From NCBI GenBank assembly GCA_905181995.1, contig CAJIZO010000163.1, forward strand, positions 1 to 36,443: a stretch of DNA of 36,443 nucleotides, written 5' to 3'. Made by a program: the position numbers and the translations under genes. Source of the stretch: Flavobacteriaceae bacterium TMED48 (GTDB lineage Bacteria > Pseudomonadota > Gammaproteobacteria > Pseudomonadales > Porticoccaceae). Below, one piece after another: positions 1 to 27,808 of this stretch. The notes under the pieces are model-generated. The model was not told where the DNA came from, ran no database searches, and saw only the letters and a program-made list of their open reading frames with translations. Position 1 is the stretch's first letter. Each line of letters opens with the position of its first letter.

Positions 1-291
1 TAATTAGACTGGAGCTATTAACATCGCGGCGGCGGCGAAAGACATTTAATGTACTTGGTCGGGGTCAATTCCAAAGTACATCGCTGGCATACCTGGCTCA
101 AAGCGGGAAAGTTTATTAGTAGAAAAGATTCAACAAGTTGAATTGGCGGGTTAGCGTCTTAAATGGGGCCCTAGGATGTTAAAGACGAAAAAACACAACA
201 GGCATTTACTCGATGATCGATATTCCTCTCATGGCGCTATGGTGCAAATCAAGCACATCTATCGATCCACGCACCGCTGTCCATTTGATGT
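1..291. other. Gene-poor left edge, probable decayed island DNA
   Basis: No convincing gene is visible. The stretch lies downstream of the broken integrase stub and probably held the rest of that gene or element. An imperfect inverted repeat (gtacttgg at 51-58 with ccaaagtac at 71-79, one-base bulge) could form a small hairpin. A short minus-strand open stretch ends with a TAA at about 48-50 and reads GMPAMYFGIDPDQVH at its C terminus. I do not recognise it, and it lacks a start within its open frame. Confidence 0.4.
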
Positions 292-312
292 TCAATCCAT
301 TTGATGTTCAAT
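281..312. repeat. 16-bp tandem duplication inside the integrase stub
   Basis: The 16-base unit ccatttgatgttcaat occurs twice back to back. Its length is not a multiple of three, so it shifts the integrase frame and creates the stop at 292-294. The perfect identity of the copies suggests a recent slippage or duplication event. Confidence 0.85.
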
Positions 313-429
313 GCGACCTGCCCATGCTTTCGCGAGGGTTTTTATAGGGAATGTTTTCGTTTGAACAGGATAACCTTTGCGGACAATCCTAGCGTGAACG
401 GACTTGCCTTGCTCAACTATTGACGCCAT
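292..429 (-). pseudogene. Tyrosine integrase, N-terminal remnant
   Basis: A 45-residue frame starts at ATG 429 behind a good Shine-Dalgarno (AAGGAGAG, about 7 nt upstream). It has the N-terminal pattern of phage/island tyrosine integrases: a basic stretch RIVRKGYPVQTKTF, then KTLAKAWAGRIEHQMD. It stops at TGA 292-294 because a 16-bp unit is duplicated in tandem. Removing one copy in thought extends the family pattern to EHQMDSGAWIDR before a second stop, so the gene is decayed beyond the duplication. No catalytic domain (Arg-His-Arg-Tyr) is seen in the remaining 290 bases. The gene points away from the tRNA-Ser whose 3' end is 88 bp upstream, the usual position of an integrase that uses a tRNA as attachment site. 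Recognition of the integrase N terminus is by family resemblance only. Confidence 0.7.
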
Positions 430-450
430 ATAATCTCTCCTTGATCAACT

Positions 451-470
451 TGTGGCACATGTGTGGCACA
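451..470. promoter_or_regulatory. Direct repeats upstream of integrase stub
   Basis: Two perfect copies of tgtggcaca start at 451 and 462, 11 bp apart or one helical turn, just upstream of the integrase start and within 50 bp of the tRNA 3' end. Same-face spacing fits a protein-binding site. Integrase arm-type sites or an autoregulatory operator are the obvious candidates, by inference from position only. Confidence 0.45.
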
Positions 471-516
471 AGCAGCTCTACTATAACGTAACTAGCTGAT
501 AAATATAAAAAAATAG

Positions 517-607
517 TGGCGGAGAGAGAGGGATTCGAACCCTCGATACGCTATTAACGCATACACACTTTCCAGGCGTGCGCCTTCAGCCGCTCGGCCA
601 CCTCTCC
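517..607 (-). tRNA. tRNA-Ser (anticodon GGA)
   Basis: Read on the minus strand, the sequence begins GGAGAGG and ends TCTCTCC-G-CCA, giving a 7-bp acceptor stem with one G-U pair and an encoded CCA. The T arm is GAGGG-TTCGAAT-CCCTC. The anticodon stem is CACGC/GTGTG around the loop CTGGAAA, so the anticodon is GGA (at 571-573), reading UCC/UCU serine codons. A long variable arm (TACGCTATTAACGCATA region on plus) is the class II hallmark of serine tRNAs. The gene is 91 nt including CCA. Its 3' end faces the integrase remnant, so it is a likely attachment site. Confidence 0.95.
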
Positions 608-738: not shown

Positions 739-1596
739 CTATTGACGGACGTGCCTAAAGGCTGGCGGCAACGCCTGATGAGTGCTGCGAAAGGGATTGA
801 TATCTATACCGCCACGGCGCAGATAACGCGCGTAAACCGACAGCGCACTCGGCTGGCACTGGGCGACGATATCGGCAAAAATTTGCTCGACGCACTGCTC
901 GTGAAAGTCCTGGTGTTGACGGTATGAAACGAGATAGGCAAGCAACCCGTCGCGATCGATCGGCGCACCGCGATAAACAATGTACACCGATGCCCAATCT
1001 GGTTGGTTAGTCACCGGACAATTGCTGCGCAGCAAGTGCGAATAGAGCGTCTCTTCGATCTCGCTCTCAGTGTCTGTATCAAGCTCTCGATCAACATCTC
1101 GATCAACGTCTAGGCCTAACAAGTTAGCATCCGGGGTGTAGGCATTGATCGATACCTGACGACGATCCAGGCAGTGCCCCTCGGGTTCGCTCGTCGGGCG
1201 TTGCCGGTGATAGTCGTCGAGGGTGTAGAGAGAGACCTCGACGCCGCCGCCGGTGGCGCTCGACAAATCGTCGCGCAAGCGAGATTGCAGCGTACTCCAA
1301 GAGGGTTCCACATGCTGATGATAGCTATTCAAATAGAGCTTCACCGATTTTGACTCGACGATGTTGGGGCTGTCGCAGGGAACGCTAAATTCGGCGATGG
1401 CGCTCTGCGGCAGACCCTGCCCATTCAGCCACGATAGTTCGTAGGCGGTCCACAGATCACAGCCGACAAACCCCAACACCGTCCCCTGCGCCTGGCGCGC
1501 ACGAACGCGAGCTATCGGGTATAACAGCCGAGCGTCTAGTGCGCTGTCGTAGTCAGTCGTCCGACCGAGTCCCGTATCGGAGTAATCGATGCTCAA
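739..1596 (-). CDS. queF: NADPH-dependent 7-cyano-7-deazaguanine reductase QueF
   Basis: QueF reduces preQ0 to preQ1 with NADPH in the cytoplasm, a step of queuosine synthesis. The protein matches the long, two-domain E. coli type: the substrate-recognition region with ELSWLNGQGLPQ and ESKSVKLYLNS, the catalytic segment SHLLRSNCPVTNQPDW (Cys193), and the end FHEQCVEQI, SVYARYLRRGGIDINPFRS. I chose the TTG at 1596 because it gives 285 residues (E. coli 282) and overlaps the permease stop as TTGA, suggesting translational coupling. The open frame runs further upstream, but only by overlapping the permease by 90 bp. Odd: an acidic repeat (DVDRDVDRELDTDTESEIEE, about residues 163-182) sits just before the catalytic Cys, where E. 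coli has a shorter linker. It is third in an operon after an ABC exporter. Confidence 0.93.
   Translation of the reverse strand: MSIDYSDTGLGRTTDYDSALDARLLYPIARVRARQAQGTVLGFVGCDLWTAYELSWLNGQGLPQSAIAEFSVPCDSPNIVESKSVKLYLNSYHQHVEPSWSTLQSRLRDDLSSATGGGVEVSLYTLDDYHRQRPTSEPEGHCLDRRQVSINAYTPDANLLGLDVDRDVDRELDTDTESEIEETLYSHLLRSNCPVTNQPDWASVYIVYRGAPIDRDGLLAYLVSYRQHQDFHEQCVEQIFADIVAQCQPSALSVYARYLRRGGIDINPFRSTHQALPPAFRHVRQ
1086..1109. repeat. 12-bp tandem repeat within queF
   Basis: Two near-identical 12-bp units (ctcgatcaacat / ctcgatcaacgt) encode the repeated acidic DVDR motif. The length is a multiple of three, so the frame is kept. Confidence 0.7.
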
Positions 1597-2366
1597 CTGC
1601 GCAACCTCGAGCCCTGCTCCAACTGCCGCAGGGTAATAGAAAAAAGCACCGCAATCGATAGACAGACCATGGCAAAAGCCCACCCAATATTAATATCGGT
1701 CACTCCACTGATACCGTAACGAAAGGTATTTACCACGTATAGGATCGGGTTGATCATGGCCACGTTGGCCCAAAAATCACTCAGTAATTGGGTCGAATAA
1801 AATACCCCGCCAAGATAGGTCAATGGCGTCAAAATAAAGGTTGGCACTATGGAAATATCGTCAAAGCTGTCGGCGAAAATGGCGTTTAACAAGCCGGCGA
1901 TCGAAAATAGCATCGACGTCAACAAAACAATACTGATCGTAACCGGCACGTTGTGAATAGAAAAATCGGCAAAGTACAGCGACAACAGCGTGACGATGAC
2001 GCCGATACCCAAACCTCGGGTCATACCGCCGACAACATAACCGAGCAAAATCACAATATTGGGCGTCGGTGAGACTAACAACTCCTCGATATTGCGCTGG
2101 AATTTGGAGCCGTAAAAAGACGACACCACATTGGAATATGAATTGGTAATGACCGACATCATAATCAACCCCGGCGCGACAAACTGGATGTACGGCAACC
2201 CCGCCATCTCGCCAATACGCCCACCAATAAGATTGCCAAAAATCAAAAAGTACAAAACGATAGTGATCACCGGCGGAATCAGCGTCTGCGGCCACATACG
2301 CAGATAGCGCCGTACTTCTCGCGTGACGATGGTGGCAAAGGCTATCCATATCTCTTTGCGGTTCAC
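1593..2366 (-). CDS. yadH: ABC-2 type exporter permease (YadH-like)
   Basis: This is the membrane subunit of an ABC-2 exporter, 257 residues, as in E. coli YadH (about 256). It has an N-terminal cytoplasmic part and about six hydrophobic segments, with the ABC-2 hallmark region PGLIMMSVITNSYSNVVSSF at about residues 65-84 and a C-terminal segment with the PLTYLGGVFYS motif. The start ATG at 2366 overlaps the stop of the upstream ATPase gene by 4 bp (ATGA), so the two subunits are translated together. The stop overlaps the queF start. The substrate is not known for the YadGH family; drug or lipid-like export is often suggested without firm proof. Confidence 0.88.
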   Translation of the reverse strand: MNRKEIWIAFATIVTREVRRYLRMWPQTLIPPVITIVLYFLIFGNLIGGRIGEMAGLPYIQFVAPGLIMMSVITNSYSNVVSSFYGSKFQRNIEELLVSPTPNIVILLGYVVGGMTRGLGIGVIVTLLSLYFADFSIHNVPVTISIVLLTSMLFSIAGLLNAIFADSFDDISIVPTFILTPLTYLGGVFYSTQLLSDFWANVAMINPILYVVNTFRYGISGVTDINIGWAFAMVCLSIAVLFSITLRQLEQGSRLRS

Positions 2367-4079: not shown

Positions 4080-4628
4080 ATGCCGCGCAAGACCATTCAT
4101 CGCCTGATTCCAAACATGACGGCCATTCTCGAAAAACCATCGTTACACTGGCTGAAGTCGCTGATAAAAGACCCCAACTTGTTACATATCAATCGACATT
4201 CGGTCTCGTTGGGTGTGTATATCGGCATCTTTTCGGCCTTTTTACCGCTCCCCGGGCAAACCTTTATCGCGATATGGATGTGCTTTTGGCTCGGCGCAAA
4301 CCTGCCGATTGCAGCCGTCGTAATTTGGATTAGCAACCCGATCACCATGCCACCGATGTTTTATCTCACCTATCAACTCGGCAGCGTATTGCTTGGCACC
4401 GAGGCTCTCGACTTTACCATCGCGCTCACTTGGCAATGGTTTATCAACGTCGGCACACAAATTATTTTGCCGCTGGCGGTCGGCAGTCTGTTGAGCGGAA
4501 TACTGCTGGCGACCAGTGGTTATTTTCTTGTGCTACAACTTTGGCGTTGGAAGGTGGTGCAAAATTGGGAGCGCCGCAATATCGAGCGCATCGAGTTAAA
4601 ACGCCAAACCGTTGCGCAAGATCAGTAA
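4080..4628 (+). CDS. DUF2062 family membrane protein
   Basis: A 182-residue protein with the DUF2062 pattern: a short N-terminal amphipathic part, the core SLGVYIGIFSAFLPLPGQ followed by a hydrophobic helix, then ISNPITMPPMFYLTYQLG, and a second pair of membrane helices ending near residue 155. The basic C-terminal tail is likely cytoplasmic. The function of the family is not established. It follows ogt on the same strand after a 49-bp gap. Its 3' end overlaps the convergent lolE by 7 bp (4622-4628), so there is no room for a conventional terminator between the two. Confidence 0.85.
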   Translation: MPRKTIHRLIPNMTAILEKPSLHWLKSLIKDPNLLHINRHSVSLGVYIGIFSAFLPLPGQTFIAIWMCFWLGANLPIAAVVIWISNPITMPPMFYLTYQLGSVLLGTEALDFTIALTWQWFINVGTQIILPLAVGSLLSGILLATSGYFLVLQLWRWKVVQNWERRNIERIELKRQTVAQDQ

Positions 4629-17059: not shown

Positions 17060-17149
17060 GACGATATCCAATAGAGTGACGGTATCCGTTAAAGTGACGG
17101 TATCCGAAAAAGTGACGGCATCCAATTAAAAGATGGTATCCAATCAATC
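17060..17149. repeat. Five 18-bp tandem repeats
   Basis: Five head-to-tail units begin at 17060, 17078, 17096, 17114 and 17132, with consensus gacggtatccnnnaaagt. Units 2 and 3 differ at only three positions in their variable middle; unit 5 has drifted most. The array is contiguous with no spacers, so it is a minisatellite and not a CRISPR. Confidence 0.9.
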
Positions 17150-21068: not shown

Positions 21069-22367
21069 ATGAATGGGGAGTGCCTAATACGGATATTGCG
21101 CTGCGGCTTAATACTGGTTGTGAGCCAATGGTTTGCTAGCGCGGCGTACGCCAATCAAACATCGGGGTCGCCATGGCAGCCGGATAACTGGTATCAAGCA
21201 GAAGTCGTCATCTTCACTCAGGGCAGCGCTGTACCCGACGAAGCAGCATCGCTGCAATACCAGCTCAAATACCCACAACGATGGCTGAAACTCCTCGACA
21301 GCGATACGGTAATAGACATTCGCCAACTGGCCGACGCCTTCGAGGACGGTATTGATCCCGACGCCGCCGGCGCCCTGAAACGCCTAAGCATTCAGAGCAA
21401 TCTGCCACAAACGACCGCTGCATCCGATGCCAGTGCAGCCTTAATACCCGGCGCGCCCGTCCCGTCTGCGGTAATCGCTGGGCCGCTGATCGCAGCAAAA
21501 CCTATATTTGAACTGCCCTACCGACGGCTAAAAGCGCCAGATCGCGACCTCAACGATACCGCACGCGCCTTGGTTCGACGTCCGCCTTACGAGGTCATTT
21601 ACCACCGCGCATGGCGCTTTCCTGCGCAACAGGATAGTGACGACCCCTGGTTGATCGTCGAGGGCGGCCCAGCGTTTAAAGACCGCTTTCAGCTTGAGGG
21701 TAGCTTACGTTTTTACAAATCGCGCTTTTTACACTTCGAAAGCAATCTCTGGCTAACCCACTTTAGTGACGATATCGAGGCAACACAGCAGATTATATTG
21801 CCGGTATTGAAACGCCACCCGCGGTCAAAAAACAGCCCGATAGTCGATCAGACCACCGGTCTTGCAGGGCTCGAAAAAGCACCGGTAACTACACAGGACC
21901 CGAACGTCGACGCAGCCTTACAATCGCCCGATAACGGTGGAAATGGTGCCGAGGCTCAAGCCGATACTGACGTCTATGGTGAAGATGAAGGTGAAGACCT
22001 GCTGCGAATGTCCTCTCTATCGACCTCTCTATCGACCTCTGTATCGACCTCTGTATCGACCTCTGTATCGACCTCTACATCGACCTCTGCACCCGCCATG
22101 GGCATCGGCGAGCTATCGTTTAGCCCAAGGCAGCCTGGTGCCCAACTGGCACCGGCGATCGAATCACTGGCGCCGCCGAATGTCTATCCCGCAAAAAACC
22201 TCTGGACCTTTAACCAGTCGAGGCGCCTGCAGGAGGCCGAGGTGTACTATTTAGATCACCCGCAAATAGGCATTATATTGACCATCAAGGCATACCAACC
22301 GCAATTGCTCAATCCACAAGACAATCACCAAGACAATCCACAAGACAAAGCGCCTGTAACCGAATAG
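21069..22367 (+). CDS. csiV: CsiV family peptidoglycan-binding protein
   Basis: A 432-residue secreted protein with a signal peptide (hydrophobic 8-25, likely cleavage at AYA-N near residue 29). After it comes the CsiV-type start WYQAEVVIFTQGS, and later the second conserved part FESNLWLTHF and EAEVYYLDHPQIGIILTIKAYQP. In Vibrio cholerae CsiV is a periplasmic peptidoglycan-binding protein needed for cell-wall integrity through LpoA/PBP1A. The conserved halves are split by a low-complexity insert with a Ser/Thr repeat (STSV units, about 318-342). The C terminus has short QDN repeats (NPQDNHQDNPQDK). mfd followed by this gene is also, from memory, the Pseudomonas order. The family call is good; the detailed role here is by analogy. 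Confidence 0.8.
   Translation: MNGECLIRILRCGLILVVSQWFASAAYANQTSGSPWQPDNWYQAEVVIFTQGSAVPDEAASLQYQLKYPQRWLKLLDSDTVIDIRQLADAFEDGIDPDAAGALKRLSIQSNLPQTTAASDASAALIPGAPVPSAVIAGPLIAAKPIFELPYRRLKAPDRDLNDTARALVRRPPYEVIYHRAWRFPAQQDSDDPWLIVEGGPAFKDRFQLEGSLRFYKSRFLHFESNLWLTHFSDDIEATQQIILPVLKRHPRSKNSPIVDQTTGLAGLEKAPVTTQDPNVDAALQSPDNGGNGAEAQADTDVYGEDEGEDLLRMSSLSTSLSTSVSTSVSTSVSTSTSTSAPAMGIGELSFSPRQPGAQLAPAIESLAPPNVYPAKNLWTFNQSRRLQEAEVYYLDHPQIGIILTIKAYQPQLLNPQDNHQDNPQDKAPVTE
22019..22090. repeat. Six 12-bp tandem repeats in csiV
   Basis: Six contiguous units of atcgacctctgt (ends vary: ct, gt, gt, gt, ac, gc). Each encodes one Ser-Thr-Ser-X repeat, with units 2-4 identical. The 12-bp period preserves the frame, so copy-number changes would lengthen or shorten the linker without breaking the protein. 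A second small array of aatccacaagac-like 12-mers lies near 22312-22347. Confidence 0.9.
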
Positions 22368-27708: not shown

Positions 27709-27808
27709 CTCAAAACCCTTTGGTTGATCTCAAAGCTCTCTGGTCAGTCTCAAAGCCCTCTGGTTAGTCTCAAAGCTCTCTGGTTGGTGTCAAAGCCCTC
27801 TGGTTGGT
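27709..27808. repeat. Five 20-bp tandem repeats
   Basis: Units start at 27709, 27729, 27749, 27769 and 27789, with consensus ctcaaagcyctctggttrgt. Units alternate between gctctc and gccctc from unit 2 on, which suggests the array grew partly by duplication of a 40-bp dimer. No spacers, so not CRISPR. The 20-bp period is not in phase with codons. Confidence 0.9.

Follow-up and report, generated by a model that had tools for sequence, protein, structure and literature searches.

Does the left end of this contig hold the remains of an integrative element that once entered a serine tRNA gene, and, if so, what inactivated its integrase? The window, that is, the whole stretch of 36,443 nucleotides analysed here, is the entire contig C163; its position 1 is the contig end, and there is nothing farther left in sequence. 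The assembly it belongs to amounts to 2.06 Mb in 218 contigs and is 88% complete, and all support for a remnant comes from one contig end of this one fragmented assembly. The initial annotation described a fossil element at tRNA-Ser(GGA) whose tyrosine integrase had been killed by a 16-bp duplication. Our answer agrees with the first half of this description. Homology, placement, orientation, low G+C and a variable flank agree on a degraded tyrosine integrase at the 3' end of the tRNA, and we consider it highly probable that an element carrying such an integrase entered tRNA-Ser(GGA) there, that the integrase was later inactivated, and that the rest either has been deleted or is located past the end of the contig. 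The second half is a different matter, and is taken up below.

An integrase N terminus beyond tRNA-Ser(GGA)

Three features, all on the minus strand, define the locus:

517..607, minus strand: tRNA-Ser (anticodon GGA), found by ARAGORN and by the Rfam tRNA model (520-607, 52.8 bits), with its 3' end at 517; the probable attachment target
430..516, minus strand: spacer of 87 bp, read from the sequence, separating the integrase start codon from the tRNA 3' end
295..429, minus strand: integrase N terminus of 45 codons (the stub), with ATG at 429 and stop at 292-294, identified by tblastn to annotated integrases and by a profile of relatives

This tRNA is the sole one that ARAGORN reports in the window. 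A match to the sX4 RNA at 420-615 was set aside, being below the cut-off and having its alignment carried by the tRNA. The spacer would be expected to contain an attachment-site arm and a promoter.

The integrase N terminus that had been annotated close to the tRNA proved to be real: it lies on the tRNA's strand, its ATG 87 bp beyond the tRNA, and is homologous to integrases. A tblastn search of plasmids returned four matching records, all annotated as site-specific integrase, the best of them (E 2e-4) with 50% identity over all 45 residues. Among phages there were 38 records with E-values of 0.02 to 0.4, 36 of which carry an integrase or recombinase annotation at the match. In the same taxonomic family, 2 of the 111 genomes besides the own one have, between them, three loci that match the stub (E 8.9e-5 to 3.9e-4), and in the order 11 of the 389 other genomes have a match (best E 1.4e-7), the E-values of these searches, of 112 and 390 genomes with the own genome included, being those for one genome. 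The search found none in the genus's 13 other genomes. A stub without any integrase match, together with a tRNA 3' end duplicated in no relative, had been named as an outcome that would count against the reading; annotated integrases do match the stub.

Pattern scans widened the set of related loci to 53 viral and 53 genome loci, with 41–59% identity in the N terminus. Against a profile of 62 relatives the stub scores 48.7 bits, a value to be read with the fact that the relatives were gathered with patterns partly derived from the stub itself. Ten columns are invariant across seven aligned sequences, the stub among them. Members of the Phage_integrase family (PF00589) have a C-terminal catalytic domain with R, H-x-x-R and Y residues, and the family's model is present in all four full-length relatives tested. 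On its own the stub hits none of the curated Pfam, PHROGs and NCBIfam models, which counts against the element reading. Its match in the PDB comprises only 18 residues of a synthetic PPR protein and was taken as chance. Across the own genome no PF00589 match was found at E 0.001, though there is one weak match to the XerD model (E 3.7e-6); the lack of a catalytic domain also counts against the element reading. The stub is a remnant of a tyrosine recombinase gene, not a working member of the family.

The layout is that of an integrative element: the integrase adjoins the tRNA 3' end and reads away from it on the same strand, after a short spacer. Among the 53 related genome loci, 47 have a tRNA on the same strand that ends upstream of the match, at most 165 bp away. 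In 41 of them, mostly from Pseudomonas, the tRNA is tRNA-Arg(CCG), so that the loci are not independent; the other six lie at tRNA-Leu, -Ala, -Ser or -Lys. The remaining six loci (L100, L103, L138, L141, L146 and L150) have no upstream tRNA. The viral scan covered 28 of the 53 loci, the other 25 being left out since their match starts within 46 bases of a sequence end; seven of the 28 have an upstream tRNA, always tRNA-Ser(CGA), and 21 have none. In the same taxonomic family all three loci start 90 to 124 bp from a tRNA (tRNA-Asn, tRNA-Met and tRNA-Arg), and in the order a same-strand tRNA lies within the stretch examined at four of 11 further loci. For the genus, nine integrase regions from seven genomes were chosen from a list. 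In four of these the integrase frame starts close to a tRNA on its own strand, 74 bp past tRNA-Ser(TGA), 86 bp past tRNA-Met, 100 bp past tRNA-Arg and 134 bp past tRNA-Met. Two others have their same-strand tRNA farther away, at about 340 and 690 bp; in a further two the tRNA is on the opposite strand and not near the start, and the ninth region lacks a tRNA. A tRNA is present in eight of the nine regions, as opposed to four with the close same-strand layout. The five regions lacking this layout, like the related genome and viral loci with no upstream tRNA, count against the element reading.

The stub resembles the integrases at tRNA-Arg(CCG) and at viral tRNA-Ser(CGA) in its N terminus, its distance from the tRNA and its direction. 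Those integrases differ in using other tRNA targets and in that most are full length: among the 53 genome loci, 36 reach at least 280 residues, one is cut by a contig end, and 16 end short of 280 residues within their contig, some of which may be sequencing errors or matches starting inside the gene. Within the genus, the integrase of G011 lies at the tRNA-Ser(TGA) mentioned above, 74 bp from its 3' end and on the same strand. It differs from the stub in its N terminus (judged by eye), its open frame of 386 residues and the isoacceptor. An apparently split tRNA in G011 was discarded, since a stretch of N lies within it.

A side observation concerns XerC and XerD, the usual enzymes of chromosome-dimer resolution. 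The XerD cut-off (TIGR02225) is reached in none of the 69 genomes of four genera, g1 (the window's), g6, g10 and g13, among them the single-contig genomes G086 and G109, both of g10. It is reached in 41 of the 43 genomes of the family's ten other genera, the remaining two scoring 284–295 bits. The best score in the 69, among the matches listed, is 107.8 bits with an internal stop; elsewhere, scores over the cut-off are at least 366 bits. The clade of these four genera may have lost XerC and XerD, or may have very divergent ones.

The 16-bp duplication and the end of the reading frame

Two features mark the place where the integrase frame breaks:

281..312, no strand assigned: perfect 16-bp tandem duplication, two adjacent copies found by repeat detection, which throws the frame out of register
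252..278, minus strand: integrase-like reading resumed for nine codons in the shifted frame, with a stop at 249-251

The duplication is as first annotated, perfect and interrupting the integrase frame; its matching run spans 280-312, and the stub's stop codon falls inside it. Perfect adjacent duplications with a unit of at least 12 number three in the window, the other two both belonging to one 12-bp array near 22 kb; in 60 sequences simulated from the window with a first-order Markov model there was none. Separately, the window holds tandem arrays at 17060-17144 (18-bp unit), 22012-22089 (12 bp) and 27709-27808 (20 bp).

With one copy removed, the integrase-like reading does continue, as had been proposed; the length of the continuation is nine codons instead of about six. 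When the window's 55,452 8-mers were scored against the relatives, the eight codons past the duplication fell in the top 0.46%, in the sole register expected without a gap, and the other eight offsets were unremarkable or contained stops. Beyond this point the gene is no longer recognisable. The profile of the 62 relatives, run over all six frames of 1-520, found neither the catalytic part nor any other later part of an integrase besides the stub, in line with the earlier view that the 3' part is missing or scrambled. Since a second stop follows after nine codons and no recognisable integrase comes later, at least two lesions are present. The claim that the duplication killed the gene is thus not supported as stated: at least one further lesion exists, the duplication as the killing event is one possibility, and the lesions may have arisen in either order.

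Two other explanations bear on this break. First, it might be in part an artefact of assembly, a wrong join in the last few hundred bases, in which case the living genome may carry an intact integrase and its element. The break lies about 300 bp from a contig end in an assembly of the fragmentation given above, the integrase homology stops abruptly, 1-248 matches nothing, and the contig of the nearest relative, G001, likewise ends inside this tRNA. Early stops, however, are common in related integrases (the 16 of 53 above), and assembly errors seldom take the form of a perfect 16-bp tandem duplication; we regard such an artefact as unlikely. Second, the duplication might be a target duplication left by an excised transposon, not a product of slippage. 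Two adjacent perfect copies would look identical in either case, yet there are no extra bases between them, no transposon end is seen, and 16-bp target duplications are unusual, which makes this origin very improbable. The reading that we prefer remains that of a genuine, decayed integrase gene.

The flanks of the tRNA and the search for attachment sites

The tRNA separates two dissimilar flanks:

1..248, no strand assigned: low-G+C sequence up to the contig end, with no clear homology match
739..1683, minus strand: queF (Pfam QueF_N and QueF), the conserved chromosomal neighbour across the tRNA

At 43.4%, the G+C content of 1-516 is below the 53.4% found right of the tRNA, where only 0.28% of 707 windows are as low or lower. 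Nine of the longer frame pieces that lie within or overlap 1-300 had no Pfam match better than E 0.17, and with PHROGs the same nine gave two weak matches, at E 0.23 and at E 0.004, uncorrected for nine pieces and two libraries. The latter, in the plus-strand piece 155-301, is a 19-residue match to phrog_35409, a PHROG of unknown function, and is likely chance. Searched as DNA, the left part matched no phage record and, among plasmids, only 22 bases at E 0.9; neither of two exact patterns taken from it is present in the viral contigs. No other phage genes were seen on the element side, here 516 bp long, which counts against the element reading.

Comparison within the genus argues in the other direction. 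By eye, a queF-like ORF adjoins the tRNA in all eight genus loci examined, which come from seven genomes, one of them giving two nearly identical loci. The other side carries a periplasmic binding protein in two, a sulfatase in three, DsbD in two and a contig end in one, where one locus per type was tested with Pfam and the others were assigned by resemblance, by eye. The element side thus varies among relatives and the queF side is conserved, as is expected of an integrative element. The DNA of 1-516 is absent from 57 other genomes, the only matches being of 33 and 37 bases. To the DsbD that flanks the tRNA in a relative, the own genome has a match of 46% identity at another place; to a relative's periplasmic binding protein it has none, in a search run with no positive control. 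The ancestral left neighbour was not found in the own genome with either of these two proteins as query.

A second copy of the 30-base tRNA 3' end, with up to 3 mismatches, was sought in the own 88%-complete assembly, where the contig ends at position 1, and none was found. One further tRNA match in the own genome (C6:2-50) was rejected, being a different tRNA-Ser truncated by a contig edge, by eye from its anticodon stem a GCT gene. These results bear on whether the element is still present leftward, stranded by its dead integrase, its far attachment site being located on a different contig or absent from the assembly. Such an element would be a version of our main reading, not its opposite. 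The low G+C persists to the contig end and the assembly is incomplete, as such a stranded element would have it; set against this, no further copy of the tRNA 3' end came up in the assembly at up to 3 mismatches, and no element gene was recognised in the pieces of 1-350. We hold it possible, and somewhat doubtful.

A candidate site was found at a sister tRNA gene in another genome:

L204 of G003, 2474-2564 and 4222-4246: tRNA-Ser(GCT) and a degenerate copy of its 3' end, found by pattern search

The copy has 3 mismatches in 25 and lies 1.7 kb beyond the tRNA; the reversed control pattern gave 0 matches. The 25-base 3' end is identical in the tRNA-Ser GCT and GGA genes. The segment between the tRNA and the copy holds a 383-aa ORF and, by eye, no integrase ORF. 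Judged from its sequence, the copy is probably an old attachment site, the relic of a small integrated element.

A proposed history and its precedents

For the window, we propose the following course of events. A temperate phage or other integrative element would have integrated by recombination at the 3' end of tRNA-Ser(GGA), with the tRNA kept intact, as placement and homology suggest. Its integrase gene would thereby have come to lie just beyond the tRNA, reading away from it. The 16-bp tandem duplication, most simply explained by replication slippage, shifts the frame after codon 45. Another lesion, no more than about nine codons on, brought a stop, followed by loss of recognisable homology, with the rest of the integrase gone. 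The remainder of the element would have been deleted, or would lie beyond the contig end.

No integrase can be produced from the broken gene, and the remnant is therefore unable to catalyse its own excision; most likely it is a functionless scar. Since the start codon, the spacer and the conserved N-terminal integrase residues are all kept, one could imagine that the 45-residue stub is still made as a short peptide that binds the DNA arm, occupies the attachment arm and excludes rival elements from the tRNA. We regard this as extremely improbable.

Similar cases are described in the passages on prophages in the genome report of Pseudomonas fluorescens Pf-5 (PMC2647930). There, the integrase of the defective prophage 02, which lies in a tRNA-Ser gene, carries two frameshifts, and in a different prophage remnant the integrase is truncated. 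Prophage 02 and the locus in the window are alike in being remnants at a serine tRNA gene with a frameshift-broken integrase. They differ in that prophage 02, as described in those passages, keeps a gene for a nuclease and a putative attachment site of 60 bp in 8.4 kb, whereas in the window only about 54 integrase codons can be recognised, with no second site seen. Published cases of broken integrases at tRNA-Ser thus already exist, and the remnant in the window, set beside those passages, is a new, small and ordinary example. As one more case of the decay of a stranded integrase it leaves the general view unchanged; it also adds one more case of tRNA-Ser as a landing site for mobile elements, in a genus known mostly from draft assemblies.
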